Shown in pieces: positions 2,737-55,650 of a DNA stretch of 64,000 nt. The translations under genes and the position numbers were made by a program. Each line of letters opens with the position of its first letter. Position 1 is the first letter of the stretch. This DNA comes from Enterovibrio norvegicus DSM 15893 (GTDB lineage: Bacteria > Pseudomonadota > Gammaproteobacteria > Enterobacterales > Vibrionaceae), in the NCBI RefSeq assembly GCF_900115495.1, contig NZ_FOWR01000021.1:1-64000 (forward strand). The letters are read 5' to 3'. The notes beneath the pieces were generated by a model that saw nothing but the letters and a program-made list of their open reading frames with translations, did no database searches and was not told where the DNA came from.

Positions 2737-3753
2737 ATGTCCGATATGCGAACACTTGGCGAGTTCATCGTTGAAAAGCAACATGAATACCCAACAGCCA
2801 GTGGCGAATTGAGCTCGTTGCTGTCTTCCATCCGTTTAGCCGCAAAAATCGTTCACCGTGAAATCAACAAAGCAGGCTTGGTTGATATTACCGGTGGGTT
2901 CGGCAGTGAAAATGTGCAAGGCGAACAACAACAAAAACTCGACGTCTATGCCAATGAAAAATTCAAAGCGGCCATGGCTGCTCGCGACCAAGTATGTGGC
3001 GTCGGCAGTGAAGAAGAAGACGATGTTGTGATCTTTGACGAAGCCCATGGACTCAATGCCAAATACGTCATTTTGATGGATCCTCTCGATGGCTCATCAA
3101 ACATTGATGTGAACGTCTCTGTCGGTACGATTTTCTCCATCTACCGCCGTATCTCACCTCTCGGCCAACCCGCTAATCTTGACGACTTCCTTCAACCTGG
3201 CAACAAACAAGTGGCTGCAGGCTATATCATCTATGGTTCTTCCACCATGTTGGTTTACACCACGGGGAACGGTGTACATGGTTTTACGTACGATCCATCA
3301 ATCGGTGTGTTCTGCTTGTCGCATGAAAACATGCGCATCCCAGAAGAAGGCACGATCTACTCGATCAATGAAGGTAACTACATCAAATTCCCACAGGGTG
3401 TGAAGAAGTACCTCAAATACTGCCAAGAAAATGAACCGGAAGATAATCGCCCATACACATCGCGCTACATCGGTTCTTTGGTTTCGGATTTCCACCGAAA
3501 TATGCTGAAAGGCGGCATCTACCTCTACCCAAGTACAGCGGCCTACCCAAGCGGCAAGCTGCGCTTACTGTATGAGTGCAACCCGATGTCGTTCATCATG
3601 GAGCAAGCCGGCGGCAAAGCCTCTGACGGTAAGCAGCGCATCCTTGATATCAAACCGACAGAACTCCATCAGCGCGTGCCCTACTTTGTTGGATCTACGC
3701 ATATGGTAGACAAAGTGGAAGCGTTTTTAAGGGACAGCCCTGACCAAGAATAA
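2737..3753 (+). CDS. fbp: Class I fructose-1,6-bisphosphatase
   Basis: The enzyme hydrolyses fructose-1,6-bisphosphate to fructose-6-phosphate in gluconeogenesis. The protein starts [10 protein letters not shown] and is 338 residues long, typical for class I. Visible motifs are the metal/substrate site [19 protein letters not shown], the GSEEEDD acidic loop before it, and the C-terminal [25 protein letters not shown] segment. The start at 2737 is preferred over upstream in-frame codons because homology begins there and AAAGGA precedes it. A strong terminator follows 7 bases after the stop. Confidence 0.95.
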
Positions 3754-19081: not shown

Positions 19082-21034
19082 ATGACACTTTCACCTCGAC
19101 CACTCTCGATGGCTGTTCTATCTGGCCTGCTAGTGATGGCAAGCCCAGCGATGGCAGAGACCATCAAGCTGCGCATCATCGAAACCACCGACATTCACAC
19201 CAATGTGATGGATTACGATTACTACAAAGACAAGCCGAGTGAGAAAATCGGGTTGGTCCGCACTGCCACTTTGGTGAAAAAAGCGCAAAACGAAGTGAAA
19301 AACAGTGTCCTCGTGGACAATGGCGACCTGATTCAAGGCAGCCCAATGGGCGACTACATGGCGGCTACAGGCATTGAAGAAGGTGAAATCCACCCCGTTT
19401 ACAAAGCCATGAATCAGCTTAACTACGACGTAGGCAACATTGGTAACCACGAGTTCAACTACGGCCTCGACTTCCTCGACCGTACCTTAGAAGGCGCCAA
19501 TTTCCCTTACGTGTCGGCAAACGTCTTTGACGCCAATACGGGCAAATCGTACTTCACACCTTACATCATCAAAGAACACACCATGACAGACACCGATGGC
19601 AAAGCGCATCTGGTGAAAGTCGGCTATATCGGTTTTGTGCCACCACAAATCATGGTGTGGGATAAGAAAAACCTAGACGGTAAAGTGATTGCGAAAGACA
19701 TCAAAGCCACTGCAGACAAACTGGTGCCTGAGATGAAAGCCAAGGGCGCAGACGTGATTGTTGCCATCCCGCACTCAGGATTGTCGCAAGACGAATATAA
19801 AGCCATGGCAGAAAACTCGGTCTACTACCTCGCCGACGTTGAAGGTATTGATGCCATTGCATTCGGTCACTCTCACGCCGTCTTCCCGGGCAAAGGCTTT
19901 GATGACATTCAAGGCGTCGACAACAAAAAAGGCACCATCAAAGGCGTCGCAGCCGTCATGCCGGGCCGTTGGGGTAGCCATGTCGGCATCATGGATCTTC
20001 AGCTCGATAAGCAAGGCGATGATTGGGTCGTCACGCCAGTTCAAACCGAATCACGTCCGATCTTTGATGGCGAATCAATCGCACAAGCCGATCCTGCAAT
20101 GCGCAAAGCGCTAGAACACGATCACAAAGCTACCCGCGCTTTCGTCAACCAACCGATTGGTAAAGCCAATGACGTGATGTACAGCTTCTTGTCGCTGGTA
20201 CAAGATGATCCAACGGTTCAGATCGTTAACCTTGCACAGAAAGATTACGTTGAGCGCTTCATTCAGGGCGATCCGGATCTTGAAGGCATTCCTGTTCTTT
20301 CTGCAGCAGCCCCGTTTAAAGCCGGTGGCCGTAAAAACGATCCCGGTAACTACACCGAAGTTGAAGCCGGCGAGCTCACTTTCCGTAATGCCGCAGACCT
20401 TTACCTTTACCCGAACACCCTGGTAACACTCAAAGTGACCGGTAAAGAAGTAAAAGAATGGCTTGAGTGCAGCGCCGGGCAATTCAACCAAATCGACCCT
20501 GCATCTACGGCACAACAATCACTGATCAACTGGGACGGTTTCCGCACGTATAACTTTGATGTCATTGACGGCGTAAACTACCAGATCGATGTGACCCAAC
20601 CTGCTCGCTACGACAGCGATTGTAATCTGGTTAACCCAGATGCAGAGCGCATCAAAGGCCTGACCTTCAATGGCAAGCCAGTGCAGGCAACTCAGCCATT
20701 CTTGGTGGCGGCGAACAACTACCGCGCATACTTGGGCAAATTCCCAGGAACAGGCAACGATTTCATTGCCTTTGCCTCGCCAGATGAAAACCGCACTGTG
20801 GTAGCAAACTACATCAGCAGCGTGACCAAGAAAAAAGGGGAAGTCACACCAACGGCCGACAACAACTGGACCTTCGCGCCGATTAAAACTGACGCCAAAC
20901 TCGATGTCGTTTTTGAAACCTCGCCAAGCGACAAAGCTGCACAGTTCATCAACGCCAAAGGGCATTATCCGATGGAAAAAGTCGGCAATGATGATGTTGG
21001 CTTTGCCCAATACCGCATTGATTTAAAGAAATAA
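19082..21034 (+). CDS. cpdB: Periplasmic 2',3'-cyclic-nucleotide 2'-phosphodiesterase/3'-nucleotidase
   Basis: The exported metalloenzyme hydrolyses 2',3'-cyclic nucleotides and 3'-nucleotides so nucleosides can be salvaged. The 650-residue precursor has a signal peptide ending MASPAMA near residue 25. The calcineurin-like phosphoesterase domain follows ([56 protein letters not shown]), then a C-terminal 5'-nucleotidase domain (about 370-600). Metal ligands His/Asp/Asn are all visible. A terminator follows 50 bases after the stop. Confidence 0.95.
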
Positions 21035-24652: not shown

Positions 24653-25231
24653 TTGGATGAAAGTAGTATGAAGCATTGTGGAAAGTGTCGAGCATTTTGC
24701 TCCAACTGCGCGATATTGCTTTGTTTTTGCGCCATGAAAATCAGTGCAGAGACAAACTCATCGCCCGTCATAGAACCCAATGATTACCGAACCGAGCACT
24801 ATCGCGCCCCCGTGCCGACCACTTTGCTCGGCGCATCGGTCATTAATGCGCCCGATGAACTTCATGCCTTTATCGAGCGAAAAACGCCGCGCCTGATTGA
24901 TGTGTATCCCGCGCCAAATAAACCCGAAGGATTGGTCAAAAACACCCTGTGGATTGAGCCCACCCGCGATACCTTACCCAACACCTACTGGTTGGCGAAT
25001 GTCGGTCACGGCATCGTGCCGGATGATCTGGTGGCGCTGCTAAAAGCCCACTTACCAATAGACGACACGCCCATTGTGATTTTCTGCGAGCCAAGCTGCT
25101 GGCACTCGTGGAATGCCAGTAAACGAGCGCTTGAATTGGGGGCAACCCATGTCTATTGGTATCGTGCGGGGGTAAAAGGCTGGAAAGATGCGGGCTATCC
25201 GCTAGAAGCCGCAGAGCCCATTCGTCCATGA
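24653..25231 (+). CDS. PQQ-dependent catabolism-associated rhodanese-like CxxxCW protein
   Basis: The 192-residue product matches the family found beside quinoprotein dehydrogenases (TIGR03865-like). A rhodanese-type fold ends in IVIFCEPSCWHSWNASKRALELGATHVYWYRAGVKGW, with Cys145 and Cys149 followed by Trp150. The exact role is unknown. The start is uncertain. TTG at 24653 has AGGAG five bases upstream, and ATG 24668 is an alternative. Either start gives a leader unusually rich in cysteine (HCGKCRAFCSNC), not a clean signal peptide. Its TGA overlaps the next ATG (ATGA). Confidence 0.82.
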   Translation: MDESSMKHCGKCRAFCSNCAILLCFCAMKISAETNSSPVIEPNDYRTEHYRAPVPTTLLGASVINAPDELHAFIERKTPRLIDVYPAPNKPEGLVKNTLWIEPTRDTLPNTYWLANVGHGIVPDDLVALLKAHLPIDDTPIVIFCEPSCWHSWNASKRALELGATHVYWYRAGVKGWKDAGYPLEAAEPIRP

Positions 25232-26190
25232 ACACGTCGCCAATGAATACACTGCCAATGAACACGCTCGCGCGCATCACAGCCCTGCTTGTTTTGTTTA
25301 ACTTCCCCTTTGGCGTCCTCGCCAATGCGCCAAAAACACTGGCTTTCGAAGAAATCGTACCGGGCGTGCATGTTCATCAGGGGAGAATCGACGACCTTTT
25401 CACGGCGCAATTTGGCCCCGTCGCCAACGTCACCTTTATTGTGGGGGAAACGTCCGTCGCCTTGATTGATTCAGGCGGAAGCCGACGCGCAGGGGAGGTG
25501 ATATATACGGCGATCCGAGCCGTGACACCGCTGCCTATTCGTTATGTCATCAATACCCATGTTCACCCTGACCACAACTTCGGTAATCAGGCTTTTCTGG
25601 CTGAGAAACCCGAATTTGTTGCCCATTTCCGCTATCCCGGAGATTTCGCGGCAAAAACAGGGTATTACCTTCAGCGCCTCAAGGCTCCATGGTTTGAAGG
25701 CACAACGCCCGTTGCGGCGACTTGGCTGATCGACACAAGTACGCAGTTCGATCTTGGTAACAGACGCATCACGCTCACACCACACGATCGCGCCCATACT
25801 CGCCACGATCTCTCCGTGTTCGACGAACAAACACAAACATTGATCGCCGGCGATCTGCTGTTCGTTGAGCACATTCCAACGTTAGACGGCAACCTGATCG
25901 GGTGGCTGAACGTGATGGATGAACTCGATCAACTGCCCTATCAACGGGTCGTTCCCGGCCATGGCGCAGTACAACTAAGAACCACCTTGTCAGAGCGAAG
26001 TGCCTTTGCTCATCAACGTCACTACCTTGAATCTCTCACCGCGTCGGTTCGAGACGCCATTCATCAAAACATTGATATCAATACTGCCAGTAACACCTTA
26101 ATGAAAGATCACGCAAAGCAATGGGCGTTGTTCGACGCTTTCCATCCGAGAAACGTTATTCAAGCCTACAAGGAGTTGGAATGGGAGTAA
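25228..26190 (+). CDS. Quinoprotein relay system metallo-beta-lactamase-fold hydrolase
   Basis: A 320-residue exported protein of the SoxH-related family that accompanies PQQ enzymes (TIGR04559-like). After a hydrophobic leader (ITALLVLFNFPFGVLANA) the zinc site reads NTHVHPDHNFGN (His111, His113, Asp115, His116). Further ligand motifs are AHTRHDLSVF, AGDLLFVEHIP and PGHG. Function in the relay is unknown. Three in-frame ATGs lie in a 15-base triplicated sequence (25228-25272), so the true start could be 25228, 25243 or 25258. The first overlaps the preceding stop. Confidence 0.85.
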   Translation: MNTSPMNTLPMNTLARITALLVLFNFPFGVLANAPKTLAFEEIVPGVHVHQGRIDDLFTAQFGPVANVTFIVGETSVALIDSGGSRRAGEVIYTAIRAVTPLPIRYVINTHVHPDHNFGNQAFLAEKPEFVAHFRYPGDFAAKTGYYLQRLKAPWFEGTTPVAATWLIDTSTQFDLGNRRITLTPHDRAHTRHDLSVFDEQTQTLIAGDLLFVEHIPTLDGNLIGWLNVMDELDQLPYQRVVPGHGAVQLRTTLSERSAFAHQRHYLESLTASVRDAIHQNIDINTASNTLMKDHAKQWALFDAFHPRNVIQAYKELEWE

Positions 26191-26205: not shown

Positions 26206-27036
26206 ATGAAATCAATCATCGCACGCCAACCTAACACGTCGAAGCAAGATTTAGATTTCAAATACATTGCGATAGCAGGTTTGTTGGCCTTGCTGCCATT
26301 CACGGTCAACGCAACAGCCAAAAGCGTGGAAGATAGCCCCAATTGGTACACCATTCGTGACAGCTTATTCCCCGACACTGCAATTGCACAAGATGCCCTG
26401 GTCACGCTCGAAACACCCGTTCGCGCGCAAGACGCAGCTATCGTGCCATTGAGCATCAAAGTGAACGTTCAGCAAGATGACCCCAACCCGATTGAGAAGA
26501 TCTTTCTTGTTGTCGATAACAACCCATCGCCGATTGTGGGCATATTTGACATGACGCCCAATAGCGGAATTGCCAACTTATCGACGCGTGTTCGCGTCAA
26601 TGCTTACAGCCCAGTCAGGGTCATTGCGCGAACCGCGGATGGTTCGCTACACATGGCAGCGAACTTTGTAAAAGCGTCTGGGGGATGCTCCGCGCCTGCG
26701 GGGGCTGATGACATGTTGGCCCGCCAACGTATGGGAAAAATGAAACTGAAAGACTTAGGGCAGGACGGTTCACGGGCACTGCAATTGTTGATCAGCCACC
26801 CAAACTACAGCGGGTTGCAAATGGACCAACTCACGCGGCACTGGATCCCATCGGATTATGTCAGCGACGTGAACATCACGTTAGAGGGCGAGCCCGTATT
26901 GCGCTTCAACGGCGGTATTTCCATTAGCGAGAATCCAACCTTTACCTTTCATGTCGACAAAGGCAAGAAGGGCAAGCTGAAAGCTGACGTAAAAGACTCC
27001 ACAGGGCGATCGTTTTCGAGTGAGTGGGATATTTAG
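26206..27036 (+). CDS. Quinoprotein dehydrogenase-associated SoxYZ-like carrier
   Basis: A 276-residue fusion of SoxY-like and SoxZ-like beta domains found with PQQ enzymes (TIGR04557-like). The SoxY half (about residues 40-170) ends in the carrier motif SGGCSAPAG with Cys161, where SoxY carries its substrate thioester. The SoxZ half (about 180-276) includes LISHPNYSGLQMDQLT and FHVDKGKKGKLKADVKDSTG. A membrane or signal segment is at residues 20-37. CAGGAGAA precedes the ATG. With the metallohydrolase and rhodanese-like protein it forms a conserved three-gene module of unknown chemistry. Confidence 0.85.
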   Translation: MKSIIARQPNTSKQDLDFKYIAIAGLLALLPFTVNATAKSVEDSPNWYTIRDSLFPDTAIAQDALVTLETPVRAQDAAIVPLSIKVNVQQDDPNPIEKIFLVVDNNPSPIVGIFDMTPNSGIANLSTRVRVNAYSPVRVIARTADGSLHMAANFVKASGGCSAPAGADDMLARQRMGKMKLKDLGQDGSRALQLLISHPNYSGLQMDQLTRHWIPSDYVSDVNITLEGEPVLRFNGGISISENPTFTFHVDKGKKGKLKADVKDSTGRSFSSEWDI

Positions 27037-27569: not shown

Positions 27570-29381
27570 ATGAAAGGTGCACAATGGTCGTTTAGTCGCG
27601 GGTTAGCGATAGCGGCACTCTCCCTGCCCATGCTGTTTTCAGCTACATCGCAGGCAAACGATGAGTTACTCAAACTTCAAGAGGATCCCAATCAATGGGT
27701 GATGTGGGGTGCGAATTACTCAGGCACACGTTATAGCTCGCTCGATCAGATCAACGCAAAAAATGCCAAAGATCTCCAAGTCGCATGGACATTCTCAACG
27801 GGTGTTTTACGTGGCCACGAAGGAGGACCTTTAGTCATTGGCAACACCATGTACATCCACACGCCTTTCCCTAACAAGGTGTTTGCGATTGACATGGATA
27901 AGCAAGCGCTTCGTTGGTCTTATGAACCAAAGCAAGACTCATCCGTTATCGCGGTCATGTGTTGTGACACGGTTAACCGCGGCCTCGCCTATTCCGATGG
28001 AAAAATTTTCCTGCAACAAGCAGACACCACTTTAGTTGCGTTGGATGAAAAAACAGGCGACGTGGTTTGGAAAGTCGTGAATGGCGATCCAAAGCTAGGC
28101 GCGACAAATACCAATGCGCCATTGATTGTGAAAGACACCATCATCACAGGTATCAGTGGGGGGGAATTTGGTGTGCGTGGTTATCTTACCGCCTACAAAG
28201 TAAAAGATGGCAGCGTGGCATGGCGCGCATACAGCACAGGCCCTGACGACGAAATGCTGGTCGACCCAGAAAAAACCACTGCTATGCTCAAGCCAATCGG
28301 GAAAGACTCAAGCCTTGAATCATGGGAAGGCGACCAATGGAAAATTGGTGGCGGTACCACGTGGGGCTGGTTTACCTATGACCCAGAGCTCAACCTGATT
28401 TACTACGGAACGGGTAACCCAAGTACGTGGAACCCTTCTCAACGTCCCGGTGACAACAAGTACTCCATGACCATCATGGCGCGTGATGCCGATACAGGTA
28501 TGGCGAAATGGCTGTACCAAATGACACCGCATGATGAGTGGGATTATGACGGCGTCAACGAGATGATCCTTGTTGATAAAAAATTCAAAGGCAAAGACCG
28601 AAAACTCCTCGTTCACTTTGACCGAAATGGCTTTGGTTACACGCTCGATCGTGTGACAGGTGAACTCTTGGTAGCAGAGAAATTTGACCCAGCCGTGAAC
28701 TGGGCAACCCATGTAGACATGGAAACCGGACGCCCTCAAGTCGTCGCCAAATACTCAACGGGTCAAAACGGTGAAGATGTCGATACCGAAGGCATTTGCC
28801 CTGCCGCATTGGGTTCAAAAGACCAACAGCCTGCCACCTACAGTGAACGCACTGGCTTGTTCTACGTGCCTACCAACCATGTGTGCATGAACTACGAACC
28901 GTTCGAAGTTTCGTATACCGCAGGTCAACCTTATGTTGGTGCCACCCTTTCCATGTTCCCTGCGCCAAACAGCCACGGCGGTTTGGGTAACTTCATCGCA
29001 TGGGATGCAGAAAAAGGTGAAATTGTCTGGTCCATCCCTGAGCGTTTCTCTGTATGGAGTGGGGCGCTTGCCACCGGTGGCGGTGTTGTGTTCTACGGCA
29101 CACTCGAAGGCTATCTCAAAGCGGTTGATGAGAAGACAGGCAAAGAGCTTTACCGCTTTAAAACGCCGTCCGGCATCATCGGTAACGTCAATACCTACAT
29201 GCACAACGGTAAGCAATATCTCGCCGTCTTGTCTGGTGTTGGAGGCTGGGCAGGCATTGGTATGGCAGCAGGTCTTGAAGGCGACACCGACGGGCTTGGT
29301 GCAGTTGGCGCTTACCGCCAACTGTCTGACTACACCCAGCTAGGGGGTGTGCTCACCGTGTTTGCATTACCGGGAAGCTAA
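27570..29381 (+). CDS. xoxF: XoxF-type PQQ-dependent (lanthanide-class) alcohol/methanol dehydrogenase
   Basis: A periplasmic eight-bladed quinoprotein of 603 residues with a signal peptide ending SQA near residue 29, oxidising primary alcohols with PQQ. Seen here: vicinal Cys131-Cys132, the active-site ligands Glu199 (GGEFG) and Asn283 (GTGNPS), and [11 protein letters not shown] with catalytic Asp325 and a second acid Asp327. By comparison with XoxF literature, the Asp two residues after the catalytic Asp marks lanthanide use, where calcium MxaF enzymes carry Ala. GGAGG precedes the ATG, and in-frame codons upstream are non-homologous. Substrate (methanol, ethanol or other) cannot be decided from sequence. 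Confidence 0.9.
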
Positions 29382-29488: not shown

Positions 29489-29938
29489 ATGGCTAAACGA
29501 CTATTTTGGGTACTCTTTTTATGTTGGGGATTCGTCTCCATCAGCCAAGCCGCAGAACATGAAGTTCGCGCAGTGGGTGTTAAATTCGATCCCATGTTCA
29601 TCATTATCGAGCCCGGCGACAACGTTTCCTGGGTCAACATGCCTGCTCATATGATTGAGACCATTGATGCGATGGTGCCTGAGGGCACGGAAAAAATCAT
29701 GACGGAGTTGGGCGTTGATGTGAATTTCACGTTCGATCTTGAAGGGATTTACGTTTACAAGTGCACACCGCATTGGGGAGCACGCATGGGTGGCGTCATG
29801 CTGGTCGGCAATCCAAGCGATATCGAAGGAACGATCGATGCCTACCTATTAGAAATTCAAACAGATAAGTCTCTACTGCCTGCTAAAGGACTGCTGAAGA
29901 AATTCAAAAAGCATCTCCAAAAGCAGGGAGTCATATAA
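29489..29938 (+). CDS. Pseudoazurin-like type I copper protein
   Basis: A 149-residue exported cupredoxin with a signal peptide ending SQAA (about residue 21). The copper ligands are all visible: His54 (PAHMIET), then Cys92, His95 and Met100 in KCTPHWGARM. The ETIDAMVPEG segment is typical of pseudoazurin rather than amicyanin or azurin. A lysine-rich C-terminal extension (KGLLKKFKKHLQKQ) is unusual and may aid docking. Its position right after xoxF suggests it is the electron acceptor or an intermediate carrier. That is an inference, since XoxF enzymes usually use cytochrome cL. Confidence 0.9.
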   Translation: MAKRLFWVLFLCWGFVSISQAAEHEVRAVGVKFDPMFIIIEPGDNVSWVNMPAHMIETIDAMVPEGTEKIMTELGVDVNFTFDLEGIYVYKCTPHWGARMGGVMLVGNPSDIEGTIDAYLLEIQTDKSLLPAKGLLKKFKKHLQKQGVI

Positions 29939-29963
29939 CGCCAATAAGATGAGGAGGCAACAT

Positions 29964-30341
29964 ATGACACGCATATTTCCATCCACTAGCATCATGCTTA
30001 TCATCGCATTATTTGGTCTCTCGCCGTCCGCAAATGCGAACGACTTTCCCACTCTCGAGCGTGTTAAATACGTGCAAGAGTGCATGTCTCTCAATGGCGG
30101 CCCGACCTACGTCAACATGTATGGATGCAGCTGTGTTCTCGACAAAATCGCTGCTGAAATGAGTTTTGATGACTTTGTTCATGCCGACGCATTTGCCCGA
30201 CTTCGCAACATGCGAGGCGAACGAGGCGGCTATTTTCGGTCATCAAAAGACAGCCGTTCTGCCAGAAAGGAGCTGACTGCACTCCGCGATGAAGCGACGC
30301 AACAATGCTTCGTGACACAACAAATCACTCGTGTTCAGTAG
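29964..30341 (+). CDS. Unrecognised exported four-cysteine protein
   Basis: I do not recognise this family. The 125-residue precursor has a signal peptide (ISM-type core SIMLIIALFGLSPSANA). The mature part is helical with four cysteines: VQECMSLNGG, MYGCSC (a CxC) and the terminal TQQCF. A charged central piece, FARLRNMRGERGGYFRSSKDSR, lies between. It lacks CxxCH, so it is not a c-type cytochrome. GGAGG six bases upstream selects the ATG at 29964 over the one at 29949. It lies 25 bases after the pseudoazurin gene and 9 bases before the xoxJ-like gene, so it is almost certainly part of the same system. Confidence 0.8.
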   Translation: MTRIFPSTSIMLIIALFGLSPSANANDFPTLERVKYVQECMSLNGGPTYVNMYGCSCVLDKIAAEMSFDDFVHADAFARLRNMRGERGGYFRSSKDSRSARKELTALRDEATQQCFVTQQITRVQ

Positions 30342-30350
30342 GAGGTTCGC

Positions 30351-31220
30351 ATGACTCGCTTAATGTCTTTCATTTCCGTGATCTTACTGATAGCCGTGTC
30401 CAGCGCTTCATTCGCAGGGGAACCCACCTTTCCTTCCCCCCTTCCCGATAAGTTGAGAGTCTGCGCCGATCCCAACAATCTGCCCTACTCCAACAAAGAC
30501 CAACAAGGGTTTGAGAATAAAATCGCTGAGCAACTTGCGCAGTATTTTCACCTCGACGTGGAATATGTCTGGTTTCCACAACGGATGGGGTTCATTCGCA
30601 ATACGTTGAAAAATTACTCCGATGAAACGGGGCGTTTCGCTTGCGACCTAGTGATTGGCGTACCGACACAATTCGATATCGCAGCCACGACCAAACCGTA
30701 TTATCGATCGTCCTATTCGATCATCTTTAAAAAAGACGGTCCGCTGGGCGCCGCGATAACACAACAAGATGTTGCTGCTCTCCCTGACACCGTTAAACAA
30801 TCACTGAGTGTTGCCGCTTTTGCCCCTTCTCCTGCCGTGACTTGGCTACGAGACAACGGCTTTAAAGGCAACACCTCTTATTTCCGCATCATGAACGGTG
30901 ATGCCGAAGATTACCCAGGAAAGATGGTAAATCGCGTTGCTGATGGCGAATTCGATATGTTGGTGATCTGGGGGCCGATTGCAGGATACTTTGCTAAGTC
31001 CAACCCCGATCTTGCGGTGATCTCCATGACATCAGAAGGCAGTAGCGTCTTCGATTTTCCGATCTCGATGGGCGTGAGATACGGTGAACGCCCTTGGAAG
31101 AAAACCGTCGAAATGGCCATGGATGCCAACGCGCCGCAAATCGCCATGATCCTTAACGATTTTGGTGTTCCCGTGGTCGAAGCGTCATCAGCGCCTCTTA
31201 GTGGTGACGATGATGATTGA
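30351..31220 (+). CDS. xoxJ: MxaJ/XoxJ-like quinoprotein-associated periplasmic binding protein
   Basis: A 289-residue solute-binding-fold protein with a signal peptide ending SASFAG. It matches the group of ABC-type binding proteins adjacent to PQQ enzymes (TIGR03871-like): LRVCADPNNLPYSNKDQQGFENKIAEQLA, then YVWFPQRMGFIRNTL and CDLVIGVPTQFDIAATTKPYYRSSY. XoxJ is thought to help mature or activate XoxF. No cognate ABC permease is nearby in this cluster. The extreme C-terminus is acidic (SGDDDD), which is not something I recall for the family. Confidence 0.87.
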   Translation: MTRLMSFISVILLIAVSSASFAGEPTFPSPLPDKLRVCADPNNLPYSNKDQQGFENKIAEQLAQYFHLDVEYVWFPQRMGFIRNTLKNYSDETGRFACDLVIGVPTQFDIAATTKPYYRSSYSIIFKKDGPLGAAITQQDVAALPDTVKQSLSVAAFAPSPAVTWLRDNGFKGNTSYFRIMNGDAEDYPGKMVNRVADGEFDMLVIWGPIAGYFAKSNPDLAVISMTSEGSSVFDFPISMGVRYGERPWKKTVEMAMDANAPQIAMILNDFGVPVVEASSAPLSGDDDD

Positions 31221-31222
31221 AC

Positions 31223-31813
31223 ATGCTCAAAAATAAACACAATGAGATGCCATTTGCCGTGAAAAAGACGGTAAGTGGCATCAAACCCTTCCTCATCATG
31301 GCGCTCATTGCATTATTGTTGGGCTGGATCCCCATTGGCTTTGCGCAAGTTGCCATATTGGATTTTGAACTGAAAGACATGACGCTTTCCCCTGCACAAA
31401 ACCAGGTATCACGCTCAAGCGACTCCCCTATTAACATCAAAGAAATCAACCGAACAGCCACGCTTGCTCCTTTGCTTAAAGACGCACTCGCGCAAAGCTA
31501 CAACCTTATGATCACGCCTGTTCCTCCACATTTGTATCTCGAAGCACAAAAAGGGATTGGCTATCTTTTTGAACGCCCACAGGCGGCCGCAAAGTTAGGG
31601 AAAAAACTTAACGCGGAATGGATCATCGTAAGCCGCCTTCACAAACCAAGCCACCTGTTTGCGTATCTTATTAGTCGCGTTGTTCATGTTCCGACGGCGC
31701 AGCCAATGCCAGAGATCATTATTGAGATCAAAGGCCAGCAAGATCGCATTAGTCAGCGGGGAATTAACAAGCTGGCTCAGCGCATCCAATCACAGATGAA
31801 CCTGACAAGGTAA
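31223..31813 (+). CDS. DUF2380/DUF3280-like protein associated with quinoprotein clusters
   Basis: A 196-residue protein with an N-terminal hydrophobic segment (FLIMALIALLLGWIPIGFAQ) that acts as signal or anchor. The domain resembles DUF2380: VAILDFELKDMTL at the start, GKKLNAEWIIVSRLHKPSHLFAYLISRVV later, and a helical RGINKLAQRIQSQM end. Its function is unknown, and this family recurs in alcohol-dehydrogenase clusters. The start is ambiguous: TTG 31217 overlaps the previous stop, while ATG 31223 and ATG 31247 are alternatives. It closes cluster 1. Confidence 0.72.
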   Translation: MLKNKHNEMPFAVKKTVSGIKPFLIMALIALLLGWIPIGFAQVAILDFELKDMTLSPAQNQVSRSSDSPINIKEINRTATLAPLLKDALAQSYNLMITPVPPHLYLEAQKGIGYLFERPQAAAKLGKKLNAEWIIVSRLHKPSHLFAYLISRVVHVPTAQPMPEIIIEIKGQQDRISQRGINKLAQRIQSQMNLTR

Positions 31814-37094: not shown

Positions 37095-39731
37095 CTATCG
37101 TTTGTGAGACAGATACGGGGGATGCAATTGTCCTGTGCCCTCGCCTTTTTCGCCATTGAGCAAATGCACCAAGGTGATTTTTAAGCGCATTGGCGACACC
37201 GGTTTGTGCTGCACCAAATACCCAAAATCCCGCGCTTGTTGCTGCAACGCTTCACTGCGGTTGGCTGTCACTATCACGGTTGGTACTGGCTGTAATCGCT
37301 GCGTATTGATGTGTTGCGCCAATGCCAACCCTGTCATTTCGGTGTCGAGGTGGTAATCCACAATCAACAATTCCACGGGGGCCTGCACCGTATCGCAACT
37401 GATTTGAAGCTCCTGCAACGAGCACGCCGTGACGACCTCACAACCCCAGCGCTGCAACAGTTCTTCCATGGCATGACAAATATTGGGATCGTTATCAATC
37501 ACCCACACCCTTGCGCCCTGCAGTACGACACCTGCATCCGGGACCAAGGCTTCAATGCTACGCGGGCTGTAAATACTTCGGTTTCCATACGGCACAAACA
37601 CGGAAAAACGCGATCCACGGCTAGGGATAGAATCCACCGACACACCATGCCCTAGCACACCCGCGATCTTATCAACGATCGCAAGCCCTAAACCCAGTTG
37701 CGTATGGTGAAGTTCTTGATCCGCAGTGAGGCGCTTGAACTCTTGGAAGATCTCTTTCTTTTTGTCTTCAGGGATCCCAACGCCCGTGTCGAGCACTTCA
37801 ATGCGAAGTCCATCTGTGCAGCGACGGCAGCCCAGCAAGATCTTCCCCGATACCGTGTAGCGAAGGGCGTTCGTCATCAGGTTACGAATGATCCGCGCCA
37901 GCAATTGTGAGTCGGTATACACGTACGCGGAGCAAGGCACGTACCGCACTTCAACAATGCTGCCTTCTGCGGCATGGGAAAAATCATCGGCAATGTTGTC
38001 GAGCAAGTCGCTGATAGGGAAAGACTGCTTGTCGGCCCTGACCACGCCAGCATCCAGCTTGGATATTTCGACCAAAGTCGTGATCAATGACTCCACGTCT
38101 TGAAGCGAATGGGTGAGAGAATCCACCAGCTTTCTCGCCGCTGGGGACATGCGATGGCTGAGTAACGACCCTAAGTAAAGCTGCGCGGCATTGAGCGGCT
38201 GCAACAGATCATGACTGATCGCTGCGAGGAATTTAGTTTTGGATAAATTGGCATACTCGGCGTCTTTTTTGGTTTCAAGTAGCCGTTCTTGCATGACGCG
38301 CCTTTCTTCCACTTCGCCTTGTAGTTGATCGTTCAAGGTTTGCAGCTGTGCCGTGCGCTCTTGCACCCTCAGCTCCATGGTTTGATAGGCTTGTTCTAAC
38401 GCCTCAGCACTGCGCCTGCGCTCAGTAATGTCCCAATTGAGCACGAAAAGCCCGGTGATATTGCCGGCGGAAGAGAGATTCGGTACATAGCTTTTCACCA
38501 CATATCGTGTGTTGCCGCTGGCATTGTTCTCTTCGATTTCGAACATCACCGACTCACCCGATAAGGCGCGATCGAGGTAGGGTTTCAGTGCCGAGAATTT
38601 CGATTGGCTGCGCATGATCGAGATGTGTTTACCGATCAACTCACCACGCGGATAGCCATACCATTCATCGTAAGCACGGTTCGTGAATTGATAGTGAAGA
38701 TCATCACCCACATAGGCAATCAAGGCAGGCACATTATCGGTGATCAAACGCAGCCACTGTTCGGTTTCTCTCAGTTCCTTGGCATCCAAATAACGCTGCG
38801 TGATGTCCGTGTACGTGTTGACGTAGCCTTCTTCTTCCATGGCATGGCTGCGCACTTCAATCACGCGTCCATCCGGTAGCGTCTGAACCCGAATGCCCTC
38901 TGGCGGGTGCGCGCCACCTCGCCCGATACGCTCCAAGGTGATCGAGCATCCTTCACGGATATCTTCCAACCTTGCACCAGAAAGCTGCGCCTGTTTCAAC
39001 CCTGAAATCACCACAAAGCGCTGATTAAAAACCTGAACATCCCCTTCTTTGCTGACCAACAATACCCCTTGAGAAAGGTTATCCACCATGTCTTGTAGCA
39101 AGCGACTTTTCTCTGCCATCGCCGCTTCAAAGCGCGCCGTTTCTGCTTGTTTAAGCTGGGTGATGTCGGAATACACCATCACCATCCCACCATCACTGGT
39201 GTGGCGCTCCTTGATTTGCAGCCAACGGTTGTCATTCAGTTTTAACGTATGCCCATTGTTGATGGTTTCGGGCTCACTCACGATCAAGCCACGCTCATGG
39301 GCAAGCTCACGGATTTTTTCCGGTGTCAGCGACATGGTATCCAGCGAGATAGCATTGTCTCTCCAGTAACGTTCAAAACGGCTGTTGGAGTACACCAATT
39401 CGCGGTTAGGATCGTAAAGGGCAAAGCCATCCGATATGGACTCAATGGCATCGATAAAACGCTGATGGGCTTGTTCTGCCTGAGATTTGGCTTGAGATAA
39501 CGCTCGGTTGGTGGATTCGAGCGATTGCAGTGCATGGTTAAGCTCTTCGGTTTTATCACGCACTTGATCGGCCAGCACCACGGAATGCTGGAAAGCGCCC
39601 CATGCATCCACTTGTGGACTTCCCCCTTGCTCAACGCGATGCACCAAGGCTTCAATCATCTTTTTCTGACGCGCGTTTTCCTCTTCAAGCGCGGCAATTC
39701 TTTGTTTGAGTTCCTTCTCGTTTTGACTCAA
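37095..39731 (-). CDS. PAS-domain hybrid sensor histidine kinase/response regulator (ErcS'/NahK-like)
   Basis: A cytoplasmic kinase of about 878 residues. The N-terminal coiled coil reads LKQRIAALEEENARQ. Three PAS domains follow (FIDAIESISDGFALYDPNREL; LLQDMVDNLSQGVLLV; LRLITDNVPALIAYVGDDLHY), then a HisKA box with FLAAISHDLLQPLNAAQ, an HATPase with LGLGLAIVDKIA, and a terminal receiver (VWVIDNDPNICHAM, LLIVDYHLD). The proposed start is a TTG one base after the FIST stop with AGGG upstream. The extension to 39794 overlaps FIST and is non-homologous. The family includes regulators of ethanol oxidation in Pseudomonas, which fits the neighbours. Confidence 0.87.
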   Translation of the reverse strand: MSQNEKELKQRIAALEEENARQKKMIEALVHRVEQGGSPQVDAWGAFQHSVVLADQVRDKTEELNHALQSLESTNRALSQAKSQAEQAHQRFIDAIESISDGFALYDPNRELVYSNSRFERYWRDNAISLDTMSLTPEKIRELAHERGLIVSEPETINNGHTLKLNDNRWLQIKERHTSDGGMVMVYSDITQLKQAETARFEAAMAEKSRLLQDMVDNLSQGVLLVSKEGDVQVFNQRFVVISGLKQAQLSGARLEDIREGCSITLERIGRGGAHPPEGIRVQTLPDGRVIEVRSHAMEEEGYVNTYTDITQRYLDAKELRETEQWLRLITDNVPALIAYVGDDLHYQFTNRAYDEWYGYPRGELIGKHISIMRSQSKFSALKPYLDRALSGESVMFEIEENNASGNTRYVVKSYVPNLSSAGNITGLFVLNWDITERRRSAEALEQAYQTMELRVQERTAQLQTLNDQLQGEVEERRVMQERLLETKKDAEYANLSKTKFLAAISHDLLQPLNAAQLYLGSLLSHRMSPAARKLVDSLTHSLQDVESLITTLVEISKLDAGVVRADKQSFPISDLLDNIADDFSHAAEGSIVEVRYVPCSAYVYTDSQLLARIIRNLMTNALRYTVSGKILLGCRRCTDGLRIEVLDTGVGIPEDKKKEIFQEFKRLTADQELHHTQLGLGLAIVDKIAGVLGHGVSVDSIPSRGSRFSVFVPYGNRSIYSPRSIEALVPDAGVVLQGARVWVIDNDPNICHAMEELLQRWGCEVVTACSLQELQISCDTVQAPVELLIVDYHLDTEMTGLALAQHINTQRLQPVPTVIVTANRSEALQQQARDFGYLVQHKPVSPMRLKITLVHLLNGEKGEGTGQLHPPYLSHKR

Positions 39732-47575: not shown

Positions 47576-49744
47576 TTATTTTTTCGAAAAATTATGAGGC
47601 GAAACAGTGACTACCACGCCTTCACCGAGTGTGTTTGTTGCACGTCTCGATTTTCGGTTCTTGCCGTATTTGTTCGCCACACAGCGGTGCTCATCACTCA
47701 CAATGGCCAAACACGCCAAGCACTGCACACACTCGTTGTAATCAATCTGCCCTGTTTTTTGAATGGCATTAATACCGCAATGTTTTTCACACAACCGACA
47801 GGGCTGACCACATTCTTCACGCCGCGTGAGCCAACTAAAGCGCCGCAGCCGCCCTAACACAGCCAAGCCCGCACCCAAGGGGCACATATACCTACAATAG
47901 GCTTTGTGAACGCGGGCACTCAGCGCCAGTAGCAACACGGCGTACAACACGAAAGGCCATGCTCTGTCGAACACTAAGGTCACCGCCGTTTTGAACGGCT
48001 CGATTTCGGCGAGGGTTTCCGCGAGAGAGAGTTGATAGAACGCCATGCTCACCAACACCATCAACACACCATACTTCACGGTGATGAGTGTTTGATGCAG
48101 ACCGTCACTGATTTTCCATTGCCGTAAACGGTACTTTTCCGCCACAGCAGCCACCAACTCCTGCATGGCGCCAAACGGACACAGCCAGCCGCAATACAGG
48201 CCTCTTCCCCACAAAAACAAGCTGATGAAGACATAACTCCACAGCACAAACAAAATGGGGTCGAGCAAAAAGACCGTGATATCGAAACCCTTCCAAAGCG
48301 ACAAAAGCAGGGTGTAGATGTTGACGACAGAGAGCTGCCCTTGGGCATAAAAACCGATAAACCCGATCACAAATAACAAGACAGTGAGTCGCACTGGCGT
48401 TAAATAGCGGCCAAATCCAGCCAAGCGATGCTGAAACACAAACACGCCGGTCAATAGCGCGAGATACACAGAAAGGACCGCGATCTCGACAAGCCGATCA
48501 TTCCAGATCCGCTGCCACAAAGGGATAGGCGGCTTGGGTGGTTCAACAGGGATCAACACGTTGTCGGGCAGACGATATTCGGTGTCGATCAGCACATGCT
48601 CTGATTCCAGGAAGTTTTTCTTCAACTGGACTGTCATACCAAACGACAAGGGCAACGACGGATCAAACCCACTTTGATCGGAGAACGTGAGAATTTTCAC
48701 GTCATCAAATGCAGGCATTAACACGGCAATCTGCTCTGCAAACACGGGCGATTGCGCGTGATACAAATCGGCATCCCGAAGCGCCAGAGGGCTACCTTGT
48801 TGGCGAAGAGAAAACCGCGCAGGCGTTGTGCCAGCGACAAAGTCGTCCGCCACAAACGAATAGCCACCACGAGAGCCAACAAGGAGTGCAACTTCCCCAG
48901 GCGCAAGAGATTGCATGATGCGTTGATATTCTTCGTCACCAAGAAGATTTTTCCCAACGCTTGGCGGGTTCAGTAACGCGATCGATAGGTCGATAAAAGG
49001 CGTGTTTTCGTCTCCGGCATCCCTTGCGGCGAGCAGCCTCCCCGTATTCACCGACAATTGTTCCGCGGCCTCATCGTCGCTAAGTCGCCATCGGAAAAGC
49101 GCCCGTTCATTGCGTAATACGTCAAAGGATCGCGGTGTGAACTGGTGCATGTTCAGCGTTGCTTTGGCGGAAGAACCAAACCCATTGAGCCTCGCCTGCG
49201 CGACTTTTCGCGCCGCCGCTAAAATGGTGTCATGCACCACCATCACCGAAACTGTCGCTTTGGTGACGCCATCAAAATACGCCAAATCGCCGCTGGCAAT
49301 CCGCGCTTGGTCACTCCCCACCAGCACTTGTTGCTTCAGCGATAACCCTTGATATTGGGCGATGAATTCATACAAAGGCGCTTCACCCAGCCCGTGCAGG
49401 AAAATCGGCTCATGGTGGCGTACCAACACCAAACCAACGATGCGCCCTTGTACATCGAGCCCAACACGCAAATTAATGCTGTCGCCTGAAAAGCCCGGAA
49501 AATCGGTTAAATCATCGGTTTCAAACAGATAGCCGATGGTTTGATCGAGCTGATAAATATCGGTGATAGGCATGGCATCTTGCGATGCTTTCATGCGGGT
49601 GGCGCGAGGAAAGAGGGCTTGCGCTTCATCGCTCACTTCAAGCCAATCTTGGGCAAAAAGCGACGGTGTAAAGAGAATCATAAAGAAGCTAAGGCAAAGC
49701 CAACGACGCCAATACATACACTGCTCTGGCATGGAAATACCCAT
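47576..49744 (-). CDS. NosR/NirI-like FMN-binding and 4Fe-4S membrane protein
   Basis: A 722-residue inner-membrane protein. After a signal peptide (LSFFMILFTPSLFAQ) there is a periplasmic FMN-binding domain. About five or six membrane segments follow from residue 410, then ferredoxin-like cysteines: LYCGWLCPFGAMQEL, RYMCPLGAG, CGQPCRLCEKHCGINAI and NECVQCLAC. Its NosR-like layout suggests electron transfer across the membrane. Alternative starts exist at 49732 and 49717. Placed upstream of pqqA with the same direction, it may feed electrons to the quinoprotein chain or to PQQ enzyme maturation. Confidence 0.85.
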   Translation of the reverse strand: MGISMPEQCMYWRRWLCLSFFMILFTPSLFAQDWLEVSDEAQALFPRATRMKASQDAMPITDIYQLDQTIGYLFETDDLTDFPGFSGDSINLRVGLDVQGRIVGLVLVRHHEPIFLHGLGEAPLYEFIAQYQGLSLKQQVLVGSDQARIASGDLAYFDGVTKATVSVMVVHDTILAAARKVAQARLNGFGSSAKATLNMHQFTPRSFDVLRNERALFRWRLSDDEAAEQLSVNTGRLLAARDAGDENTPFIDLSIALLNPPSVGKNLLGDEEYQRIMQSLAPGEVALLVGSRGGYSFVADDFVAGTTPARFSLRQQGSPLALRDADLYHAQSPVFAEQIAVLMPAFDDVKILTFSDQSGFDPSLPLSFGMTVQLKKNFLESEHVLIDTEYRLPDNVLIPVEPPKPPIPLWQRIWNDRLVEIAVLSVYLALLTGVFVFQHRLAGFGRYLTPVRLTVLLFVIGFIGFYAQGQLSVVNIYTLLLSLWKGFDITVFLLDPILFVLWSYVFISLFLWGRGLYCGWLCPFGAMQELVAAVAEKYRLRQWKISDGLHQTLITVKYGVLMVLVSMAFYQLSLAETLAEIEPFKTAVTLVFDRAWPFVLYAVLLLALSARVHKAYCRYMCPLGAGLAVLGRLRRFSWLTRREECGQPCRLCEKHCGINAIQKTGQIDYNECVQCLACLAIVSDEHRCVANKYGKNRKSRRATNTLGEGVVVTVSPHNFSKK

Positions 49745-51881: not shown

Positions 51882-53648
51882 TTAGCTTTTCGGCAGCTTA
51901 AAGGTCCATACCGTGCCACCTTGGTTGAAGTTTTTCACGCGCTTGGCAACGTCTCCGCCCCATAGCGGCACCGCACCACCCCAGCCGGATAAGACAGAGA
52001 CATATTGCTCGCCGTCCATTTTCCATGTCACAGGGCTACCCACGATGCCTGAGCCGGTGTTGAACTTGTAAAGCAGCTCACCCGTTTTGTCGTCGAAGGC
52101 CATCAAGTAACCTTCAGGGTTACCGGTGAACACCAAACCGCCTGCCGTGGTGAGCACACCGCCCCACAGTGGCGCGTAGTTTTTGAACTCCCACACCTTC
52201 TCGCCGGTTTTCGGATCATAGGCGCGGAGCACACCGATGTAATCATCGTTGTTCGAGCGAATAGTAAAGCCCGCCCCTAAGTAGGCTGCACCGCGTTTGT
52301 AGGAAACAGGCTCGTTCCAAATGTCCATGTGCCATTCATTTGCAGGCACATAAAACAACCCCGAGTTTTGGCTGTAGGCCATCGGCATCCAGTTTTTACC
52401 ACCAAGGAAAGAAGGCGCTGCAATCACGGTTTTACCCTGCTTGCCGTCTTTCACTTCACTCGGGTCACCCGGGCGGTTTTCATCAACATACAAAGGACGC
52501 CCTTTGTCATCGAGGCCTTTCGCCCAGCTGATTCTATCAACAAACGGGAAGCCGCGAATGAAATCGCCATTGGTGCGATTTAGCACGTAAAAGAAGCCAT
52601 TTCTGTCCGCCGTTGCTGCCGCTTTCACGGTTTTACCGTCTTCTTGATAATCGAACGAAATCAGCTCATTCACACCATCAAAATCCCAACCATCGTGTGG
52701 CGTGGTTTGGAAATGCCACACAATTTTTCCGTCATCAGGGTCGATCGCAAGGCGTGATGAAGAAAAGAGGTTATCGCCCGGACGCATGTGTGAGTTCCAT
52801 GGCGCAGGGTTACCCGTACCAAAAAAGAGCAAATCTGTGTCGGGGTCATACGTTCCGCCTAACCACGGCGCGGCACCGCCACTTTTCCAGAGGTCGGCTG
52901 GCCATGTTTTTCCTGGTGCGCCACCTGAGATGCCGTTTTCGATTTTCTTTCCATCTTTGTAGACGTAGCCCATGTGGCCTTCAACGGTTGGGCGTTCCCA
53001 CACCAGCTTACCTGTCTTCGCATCATACGCGCGCACTCTCCCCACAATCCCAAATTCACCGCCCGATACCCCTGTGATGACGTTACCTTTCACAATGATC
53101 GGTGCAGCGGTAATGGAGTAACCGTCTTGGTAGTTATCGACGGTCTTTTTCCAACGTACCTTGCCCGTTTTCGCATCCAGTGCGACGAGCTTGGCATCCA
53201 AGGTGCCAAATATCACCAAGTCGCCATACAGTGCGACCCCACGGTTGATCACGTCACAACACGGCATGATGCCATCAGGCAAACGTGCATCGTATTGCCA
53301 TAATTCATCGCCGGTTCTGGCATCAATGGCGTACACCCGCGAGTAAGAACCGGTCACATACATCACGCCATCTTTGATCATCGGCTGGCTTTCTTGGCCA
53401 CGCTGTTTCTCACCGCCGAGGGAGAACGCCCACACGGGACGGATCTCTTCCACTGTCTCTCGGTTTATCGCATCCAGTGGACTAAAACGCTGTCCTCTAA
53501 GGCCGAGGCCGTAGCTCACCACATCGTCTGTGGTGGCCTGATCGGCGAGGATATCTTCATCCGTGACGCCCGCATAAAGTGGCGATGATGCCAGCGCGAG
53601 CGAGAGTGCGGCAAATAGCGCACCGCGTTTAAATGACGTTACTGTCAT
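51882..53648 (-). CDS. PQQ-dependent alcohol dehydrogenase, ExaA/PedH-like lanthanide-class
   Basis: A 588-residue periplasmic quinoprotein with a signal peptide ending SPLYAG near residue 27. It has the vicinal disulfide Cys130-Cys131, Glu198 (GGEFG), Asn280 (GTGNPAPWN) and [11 protein letters not shown], where Asp322 is the catalytic base and Asp324 the additional acid that marks lanthanide enzymes such as PedH. It lacks a C-terminal haem domain, so it needs an external acceptor, most likely the cytochrome c550 two genes away. GAGG precedes the ATG by seven bases. Substrates are presumably short-chain alcohols. Confidence 0.9.
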
Positions 53649-55008: not shown

Positions 55009-55461
55009 TTAGCCGTTTTCAGGCGCCACAGATTCAAGCCAGGTTCGAATCGCCCACAGCGCTTCTTGGTTTAAGTGTTCGGTCATTTTGGGCATATACA
55101 CCGCGCCATTTCGCACTGCGCCATTTTGGACTCGGTAGATGTACCACTCATCGCCGTCGTAGTCGGGAGATAGGATGCGAAGGTCAGGGGCTATGCCACC
55201 AGAAATGCCTTCTAGGCCATGGCAACGTGCGCAGTTTTGGTTATAAGCAGACGCGCCAATACGTTCAATTTCAGTTTTCACCTCCCCTTCCACATCACGG
55301 TAGGGGTTCGTTTCTGTCCACTCCGCACCTAGGGTAGGAATGCTTGATGTGTCGATTGATTGAGGGGTGACATCTCCGTGTGCGAACACGGTGTGAGATG
55401 ACAATACGGCGACCAGCGCGAGGGCGGTAATAATACAAATATTGCGTTCAACGTTTTCCAT
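55009..55461 (-). CDS. pedF: Cytochrome c550 (PedF-like)
   Basis: A 150-residue exported monohaem cytochrome c. The signal peptide ends HTVFAHG near residue 29. Haem attaches at CARCH (Cys77, Cys80, His81) and the axial Met is in VYMPKM (Met126, with Met123 close by). The NQNCARCHGLEGISGGIAPDLR stretch is characteristic of the c550 that accepts electrons from PQQ ethanol dehydrogenases. Starts upstream of 55461 are non-homologous, and AAGGAGT lies nine bases before it. Confidence 0.92.
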   Translation of the reverse strand: MENVERNICIITALALVAVLSSHTVFAHGDVTPQSIDTSSIPTLGAEWTETNPYRDVEGEVKTEIERIGASAYNQNCARCHGLEGISGGIAPDLRILSPDYDGDEWYIYRVQNGAVRNGAVYMPKMTEHLNQEALWAIRTWLESVAPENG

Positions 55462-55650
55462 GTCACTCAGACTCCTTCGTTTTTCGATGCTTGGAAAAGT
55501 GTAGGGGCGGGGCGGATTTGACGACATGCTACAAAGGCGGGGAAATCCCTCATTCTTTAGGAGGATTTTTAACAAATCGACGGCTTGTCGTTGGAAAAAG
55601 AAGGAGCCACTGCATACAGTGAAGGCGTTGATAACGTTGGAGTGTGTCGC

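Follow-up and report, generated by a model that had tools for sequence, protein, structure and literature searches.

Which protein takes up the electrons of a XoxF methanol dehydrogenase that has no cytochrome gene beside it? This question is raised by a stretch of 64,000 nucleotides from Enterovibrio norvegicus DSM 15893 (NZ_FOWR01000021.1, positions 1 to 64,000, called the window in the following). Here xoxF (27570..29381, + strand) is directly followed by the gene of a small blue copper protein, paz (29489..29938, + strand), and related xoxF genes are followed by the gene of a heme protein, XoxG. An initial annotation of the window had placed the product of this gene in the slot of the XoxF electron acceptor. 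We report that the pairing recurs in several lineages, and we regard it as probable that Paz, a XoxF-linked pseudoazurin, serves this XoxF5 as its dedicated electron acceptor in the periplasm.

XoxF and the cupredoxin that follows it

The dehydrogenase is assigned to the XoxF5 type of lanthanide methanol dehydrogenases. Its open reading frame (ORF) opens at TTG 27537, the likely start being ATG 27570. The protein reaches 771.3 bits with TIGR03075 (cut-off 480.05), and its best matches in the PDB are the solved XoxF entries 6oc5 (988.9 bits) and 6dam. The metal site reads WDYDG and thus contains the extra Asp (DYD), for which WDYAG is found in 8 of 11 MxaF-like or distant sequences; the adjacent-cysteine motif CCD is present.

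The paz ORF encodes 149 amino acids and begins with a Sec-type leader, judged by eye from MAKR, a hydrophobic stretch and SQA. The copper ligands His54, Cys92, His95 and Met100 stand at exactly the positions given for them in the initial annotation, and all four are invariant in 18 of 18 aligned sequences. Paz scores 42.7 bits with Pfam Copper-bind (cut-off 21.2) and 64.5 bits with the NCBIfam pseudoazurin model TIGR02375, which is below the cut-off of 109.85; we therefore regard it as a cupredoxin of pseudoazurin type outside that equivalog. Pseudoazurins were on top in a PDB sequence search (5ztd, E-value 5.9e-15). An AlphaFold2 model built from the 18 aligned sequences of the window and the loci described below (mean predicted local distance difference test score 85) shows a predicted cupredoxin fold with C-terminal helices, and solved pseudoazurins are its top structural matches (5ysg, E-value 2.9e-11, template modelling score 0.73 by target). 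The heme c motif CxxCH occurs neither in Paz nor in the other proteins encoded around xoxF (cluster 1). Throughout the own genome (5.45 Mb, 99 contigs) Paz is the single match.

The Lys-rich tail pointed out earlier is indeed present (LPAKGLLKKFKKHLQKQ), and this C-terminus forms a predicted helix (residues 131-145). The 126-residue core of Paz has a net charge of -5, the protein being slightly acidic, and rough net charge and isoelectric point of XoxF do not tell the Paz-type (20 sequences) from the XoxG-type (32 sequences). As bulk charge of XoxF fails to separate the two groups and the core of its putative partner is itself negative, docking through the Lys-rich tail is unsupported by bulk charge.

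Distribution of the XoxF-Paz pairing

Paz follows xoxF in 23 loci, namely 13 from Vibrionaceae, the gammaproteobacterial metagenome-assembled genome (MAG) DT_94, one Rhodobacteraceae MAG and eight from four further gammaproteobacterial families. The claimed placement directly after xoxF is thus seen in 22 loci besides the window, beyond chance, and the survey of related genomes that had been suggested gave a positive answer. One must keep in mind that these loci were retrieved via Paz, partly by a scan of genome contigs with Paz seeds (17 loci), and that the informative part is the XoxF neighbour and not Paz itself. Two records with identical coordinates (L030 and L027) were treated as one genome and counted once.

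The order xoxF, paz, gene of a 130-amino-acid protein, xoxJ is kept in all 12 other Vibrionaceae loci (Enterovibrio, Grimontia and one Photobacterium) and in DT_94. In these loci and in the window Paz is encoded by the first recognised gene between xoxF and xoxJ, the usual place of xoxG, and no CxxCH-containing ORF of at least 80 amino acids occurs in the 13 loci (12.5-18.5 kb each). The closest named relative, Enterovibrio baiacu, has a 96% identical XoxF and an 87% identical Paz. In Enterovibrio nigricans (L018) and E. coralii (L019) the xoxF frame is broken, and in the latter xoxJ is split too, by decay or sequencing error.

The Rhodobacteraceae locus (L028) reads xoxF-paz-xoxJ. Its Paz (2741-3496) is the C-terminal part of a 251-amino-acid protein whose N-terminal stretch is long, acidic and of low complexity. 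Three Granulosicoccaceae MAG loci have Paz beside pqq genes or in a pyrroloquinoline quinone (PQQ) gene neighbourhood. In one of these genomes xoxF-xoxJ lies about 10 kb before paz on the same contig, the 8 kb read there containing no cytochrome ORF; in the second it lies on another contig than paz, with no cytochrome ORF in 10 kb; in the third a close XoxF was not found.

A Paz profile matched in 48 of 369 gammaproteobacterial genomes (class survey), and 20 stretches were fetched from 17 of the 48, the matches of G748 and G1028 being left out although their rank was among those of the fetched ones. Paz stands directly after xoxF in eight of the 20 (L163, L164, L165, L169, L172, L179, L180 and L182, from families f218, f190, f115 and f231). 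Among these, L172 has a partial xoxF at a contig end and is still counted in the 23, and so is the divergent L182 (48.8% identity, long branch), the sole Paz-associated XoxF without WDxDG. XoxJ follows Paz in 22 of the 23 XoxF-Paz loci, mirroring XoxF-XoxG-XoxJ; the exception is L182, where no XoxJ was called downstream. Five of the 20 stretches show neither Paz after XoxF nor Paz before XoxJ, among them L168 with a XoxJ-like gene about 8 kb from Paz.

At the level of the order (394 genomes) one close Paz was found besides the own one (E-value 5e-54). It belongs to DT_94 and has XoxF adjacent; this genome encodes one XoxF-type Paz and one ordinary pseudoazurin. A plasmid search with the Rhodobacteraceae Paz returned solely a Methylophaga thalassica record (L114); the cupredoxin on this plasmid (41.6% identity) lies among copper-resistance genes, not beside xoxF, and was rejected as a further case.

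Searching from XoxF gives the complementary picture. In a survey of 398 pseudomonadotan genomes XoxF was found in 40, the own genome included (E-values up to 1e-150). Besides the window, 40 XoxF loci with at least 62% identity were inspected, 29 of them over only about 1.5 kb on each side. A XoxG-like cytochrome, defined as a CxxCH gene within about 300 bases downstream of xoxF, is present in 33; seven have neither this nor Paz, and none has Paz within the stretch inspected. The same 398 genomes were also searched for Paz; 50 had a match, and no further case of Paz beside XoxF came to light. Five of the seven loci lacking a downstream cytochrome come from genomes whose other xoxF has one, and the remaining two are both XoxF loci of G483, one with a CxxCH gene 1.3 kb upstream. 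The XoxF search gave 15 further matches (46-53% identity) outside the 40; eleven of them were fetched, eight with WDYAG, two with no motif and one (L193, 47%) with WDYDG. By its motif L193 may be a distant XoxF-type among the dropped matches; XoxJ and then a CxxCH gene are encoded in its stretch.

Phylogeny and sequence signatures

The XoxF tree has 73 sequences, 20 of which are labelled as Paz-linked; L018, L019, L172 and L192 were omitted for their length, and L059, a duplicate of the L127 gene, was dropped. The Paz label requires three changes on this tree, all forced by well-supported branches, compared to a mean of 17.7 after shuffling. Gains or losses are alike possible. The Paz-linked XoxF fall into a clade of Vibrionaceae and DT_94, a second gammaproteobacterial clade of seven sequences, and L028, which stands alone among alphaproteobacterial sequences of the XoxG type.

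The cupredoxin tree (87 sequences, quick method, several long branches) splits 40 Paz from 47 ordinary pseudoazurins with a value of 100 in the Shimodaira-Hasegawa-like approximate likelihood ratio test (SH-aLRT). The 40 comprise the 23 beside XoxF, the three from Granulosicoccaceae with their PQQ gene cluster, and 14 from the class survey not seen beside XoxF. The ordinary set excludes L034, L053 and L105, whose picked ORF is no clear pseudoazurin. The Paz of L028 groups with those of Granulosicoccaceae (support 92, unstarred), apart from the kin of its XoxF.

Two signatures, CTPHWGxRMGG and LPAxGL[LI]K, the latter in the tail, occur in 18 of 18 sequences of the subgroup to which the window belongs, and in none of 47 ordinary pseudoazurins and 22 class-survey Paz. 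Since the scan seed VYKCTPHW retrieved 17 of the 18 sequences, the CTPHW part is a signature partly by construction; R99 and the LPA motif of the tail are absent from all scan seeds. CTPHWGxRMGG is the mark of a subgroup and not of every XoxF-linked Paz.

We also looked for corresponding positions in XoxF. Four alignment columns differ in both Paz clades (residues 128, 555, 576 and 594 of the 614-amino-acid ORF) compared to none in one control contrast, with L182, L189, L190, L191 and sequences without Paz or XoxG omitted from the count; these are too few to serve as evidence.

Search for a cytochrome acceptor

That cluster 1 lacks a c-type cytochrome, as had been claimed, was borne out. Between positions 20001 and 40000 of the window the only CxxCH-containing ORF of at least 80 amino acids (37311-37652, + strand) is antisense within an 899-amino-acid ORF. 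For xoxG elsewhere in the genome, a check which the initial annotation had proposed, we used a profile of 28 XoxG-like survey proteins, with which the solved XoxG 6onq reaches 260.9 bits and five XoxG-like survey loci outside the profile reach 97-276 bits. The best match in the own genome reaches 23.5 bits, far from these family scores, and falls on the PedF-type cytochrome at 55009-55575; a divergent XoxG4 type is possible.

A MoxG family search of the own genome gave nothing above cut-off. Its four weak matches are CcoP, CoxB with a cytochrome c domain, cytochrome c1 and, next to a sensor-regulator pair, a small monoheme cytochrome. As a XoxG candidate, the 144-amino-acid monoheme cytochrome of contig C49 was rejected, as it resembles CcoP and cytochrome c6 and adjoins a sensor-regulator pair. 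Counting the CxxCH pattern in the DNA of the whole genome (412 + 450 matches versus 226 + 243 for the reversed control) was too unspecific to be used.

Proposed electron path and alternatives

The presence of a blue copper gene beside xoxF, where relatives carry the gene of a heme protein, is an argument that electrons probably pass to copper and not to iron. Gene content and order, copper ligands, predicted fold, distribution and phylogeny of Paz are in line with this, as is the lack of a XoxG match near family scores. The earlier idea of a blue-copper acceptor, itself put forward as an inference, is thereby supported as such, by a conserved slot, by three forced changes on the XoxF tree, and by a genome in which NosZ has no match and NirK none above cut-off.

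For the individual steps we infer the following course. Methanol or another small alcohol would be oxidised at the PQQ-lanthanide site of XoxF. Single electrons would reach the Cu(II) of Paz by way of the adjacent-cysteine ring; Paz may dock at the PQQ funnel and would so take the place held elsewhere by XoxG. Reduced Paz could then pass the electrons on, either straight or by way of a c-type cytochrome, to a cbb3- or caa3-type membrane oxidase; the own genome encodes CcoP and CoxB with a cytochrome c domain. As a wider proposal, which we favor with somewhat less assurance, several gammaproteobacterial XoxF5 lineages and one alphaproteobacterium would have repeatedly swapped the heme acceptor and a dedicated pseudoazurin, leading to a lanthanide-to-copper relay whose flow is set by the supply of rare earths and copper, not of heme.

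Several observations weigh against Paz as the dedicated acceptor. On the Paz tree the XoxF-linked members do not form a single clade (six changes, two of them forced), and the choice of class-survey Paz by profile similarity favors the split of 40 from 47 cupredoxins. Rough net charge is no separator of Paz-type from XoxG-type XoxF. In the Rhodobacteraceae locus a c-type cytochrome is encoded upstream of xoxF, and in Granulosicoccaceae Paz lies about 10 kb from xoxF (one genome) and adjoins cytochrome genes (three loci). In seven of the 20 class-survey stretches Paz precedes XoxJ and XoxF is absent from the stretch. According to the accessible part of PMC5874918, XoxG proteins diverge very strongly, and the XoxG4 of gammaproteobacterial methanotrophs is unlinked to xoxF and yet directly reduced by XoxF; a distant XoxG in the own genome could therefore be missed. 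Finally, the window itself encodes PedF, at a distance of 25 kb from Paz, and both dehydrogenases could use it.

The last two points lead to the alternative which survives best, and which we nevertheless hold to be unlikely: PedF or another unlinked c-type cytochrome would be the real acceptor of XoxF, with Paz as a second carrier or spare. PedF (55009..55575, - strand), a cytochrome c550 scoring 190.1 bits with TIGR04494 (cut-off 122), is the main rival in this respect, as no other protein of the own genome comes closer to the XoxG profile. In Pseudomonas putida both PedE and PedH are described as requiring the PedF counterpart to be active, as far as the available text of PMC12997753 goes, and the methanotroph XoxG4 sets a precedent for an unlinked partner (PMC5874918, in part). 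PedF, however, sits in its own cluster, the second alcohol-oxidation cluster of the window, together with another PQQ alcohol dehydrogenase (51882..53648, - strand; TIGR03075, 798.7 bits), a substrate-binding protein and an ExaC aldehyde dehydrogenase. Within one window there is a heme partner gene for one dehydrogenase and a copper partner gene for the other. A role of PedF for XoxF would also leave unexplained why Paz follows xoxF in 23 loci of several lineages. The translation of the second dehydrogenase contains WDFDG, and by this extra Asp both alcohol-oxidation systems of the window may be lanthanide-dependent.

It is improbable that Paz is a general copper carrier, e.g. one serving a reductase or peroxidase or linking bc1 with an oxidase, and is merely co-transcribed with xoxF. 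Some relatives of Paz do occur away from XoxF (L166, L167, L168, L170 and L171). This explanation is opposed by the separation of the cluster Paz from ordinary pseudoazurins on the tree, by DT_94 which keeps one of each, and by the own genome, where NosZ gave no match (TIGR04244 being the model run) and NirK none above cut-off, NirS not having been searched for. A denitrification role of Paz in this genome was rejected accordingly, the two sub-cut-off matches of the NirK model being multicopper oxidases.

About as improbable is a role of Paz with XoxJ in a copper- or redox-assisted maturation or activation of quinoproteins, for which the strongest hint is that five of the seven stretches with Paz before XoxJ (L174, L175, L176, L177 and L178) have upstream sequence without XoxF, quinoproteins elsewhere in those genomes not having been searched for, whereas the other two (L173 and L181) stop at the contig end beside Paz and XoxJ follows Paz in 22 of the 23 XoxF-Paz loci just as it follows XoxG in XoxF-XoxG-XoxJ. 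As to these seven stretches, the XoxJ of L174 and L175, the two scanned, is above the MoxJ_2 cut-off. L175 and L177 have two Paz in tandem before the XoxJ-like gene. In L174 and L175 the gene after it encodes a protein of 260-290 amino acids with no Pfam or NCBIfam match.

Comparison with known systems

Paz as a proposed partner of XoxF has counterparts in quinoprotein systems. In the pairs methylamine dehydrogenase-amicyanin and type II quinohemoprotein alcohol dehydrogenase-azurin, a periplasmic dehydrogenase with a quinone cofactor passes electrons to a blue copper protein. These dehydrogenases are not XoxF and do not use lanthanides; they have another cofactor or an extra heme domain, and their cupredoxins belong to different families. 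Denitrifier pseudoazurins (TIGR02375) have the fold, the four copper ligands and the C-terminal helices in common with Paz, whose fold is predicted. Paz differs from them by its score below the family cut-off, its separate tree group, the CTPHWGxRMGG motif, its gene in a quinoprotein cluster, and a genome with no nosZ match and no nirK above cut-off.

A close likeness is to the XoxF-XoxG-XoxJ module, e.g. of Methylorubrum extorquens AM1 (XoxG 6onq). The dehydrogenase family, the XoxJ family and the order with a small exported redox protein in between are common to both; the window has a type-1 copper cupredoxin without CxxCH in this position, in place of a cytochrome c. XoxF-Paz-XoxJ is in this sense a new version of the module. 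The XoxF5/XoxG4 system of gammaproteobacterial methanotrophs likewise has a XoxF5 without an adjacent cytochrome gene; there, according to the accessible part of PMC5874918, an unlinked cytochrome is reduced by XoxF, whereas here a cupredoxin is linked and no XoxG match near family scores is found. In the PedE/PedH-PedF system of Pseudomonas a PQQ alcohol dehydrogenase likewise has a small acceptor gene dedicated to it, and a PedF-type cluster is present in the window, but the acceptor of this system is a heme protein and its dehydrogenase belongs to a different subfamily (PMC12997753, available text).

Azurin is named as an acceptor of quinoproteins in the available portion of PMC12124388, and for heterotrophic marine Thaumarchaeota that of PMC7300363 proposes that blue copper proteins may accept electrons from PQQ dehydrogenases. 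No description of a XoxF-pseudoazurin pairing was found in the literature searched, whose coverage leaves out most subscription papers, so that an earlier mention is possible. Photobacterium indicum is listed among methanol utilisers (PMC3763247, seen as an excerpt).

A XoxF system is now placed in Vibrionaceae, and a linked, conserved cupredoxin is named as its candidate acceptor. Should Paz prove to be the acceptor, these bacteria would need copper for lanthanide-dependent alcohol oxidation, and the docking face of XoxF would tolerate two unrelated partners. It would also identify, for these lineages, the acceptor of XoxF5 enzymes without a neighbouring cytochrome.

Further genes of the window

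Cluster 1 runs in the order CXXCW protein, zinc metallohydrolase, SoxYZ-like carrier, xoxF, paz, 130-amino-acid cysteine protein, xoxJ and DUF3280 gene. The first three, all on the + strand, encode a PQQ-associated CXXCW rhodanese-like protein (24653..25231; TIGR03865, 158.9 bits, cut-off 128.05), the quinoprotein relay system zinc metallohydrolase 2 (25156..26190; TIGR04559, 344.4 bits, cut-off 280) and a quinoprotein-associated SoxYZ-like carrier (26206..27036; TIGR04557, 264.9 bits, cut-off 140). The gap between xoxF and paz measures 107 bases. One terminator-like match falls into it, but the overall yield of the terminator scan, 8 matches, is close to the 6.3 expected by chance. Co-transcription of xoxF and paz is likely.

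Downstream of paz the genes form a tight run on the + strand with gaps of 10 and 9 bases. The 130-amino-acid protein (29949..30341) looks exported, is a cysteine protein and has no Pfam or NCBIfam match. It was considered as a Paz-specific helper. Relatives of it occur in Paz-type and XoxG-type XoxF clusters, and since those in L060, L083, L085, L086, L191, L115, L125 and L126 come from loci without Paz beside XoxF, this role was rejected. It is followed by xoxJ for a MoxJ_2 periplasmic binding protein (30351..31220; TIGR03871, 246.6 bits, cut-off 212.15) and by the gene of a DUF3280 protein (31217..31813; PF11684, 48.8 bits), whose start overlaps the xoxJ stop and which closes the run.

A NosR-like protein (47576-49744, - strand; 620.9 bits, cut-off 1000), in a genome with NosZ unmatched, is encoded between pqq genes and the gene of the ExaC-type aldehyde dehydrogenase.
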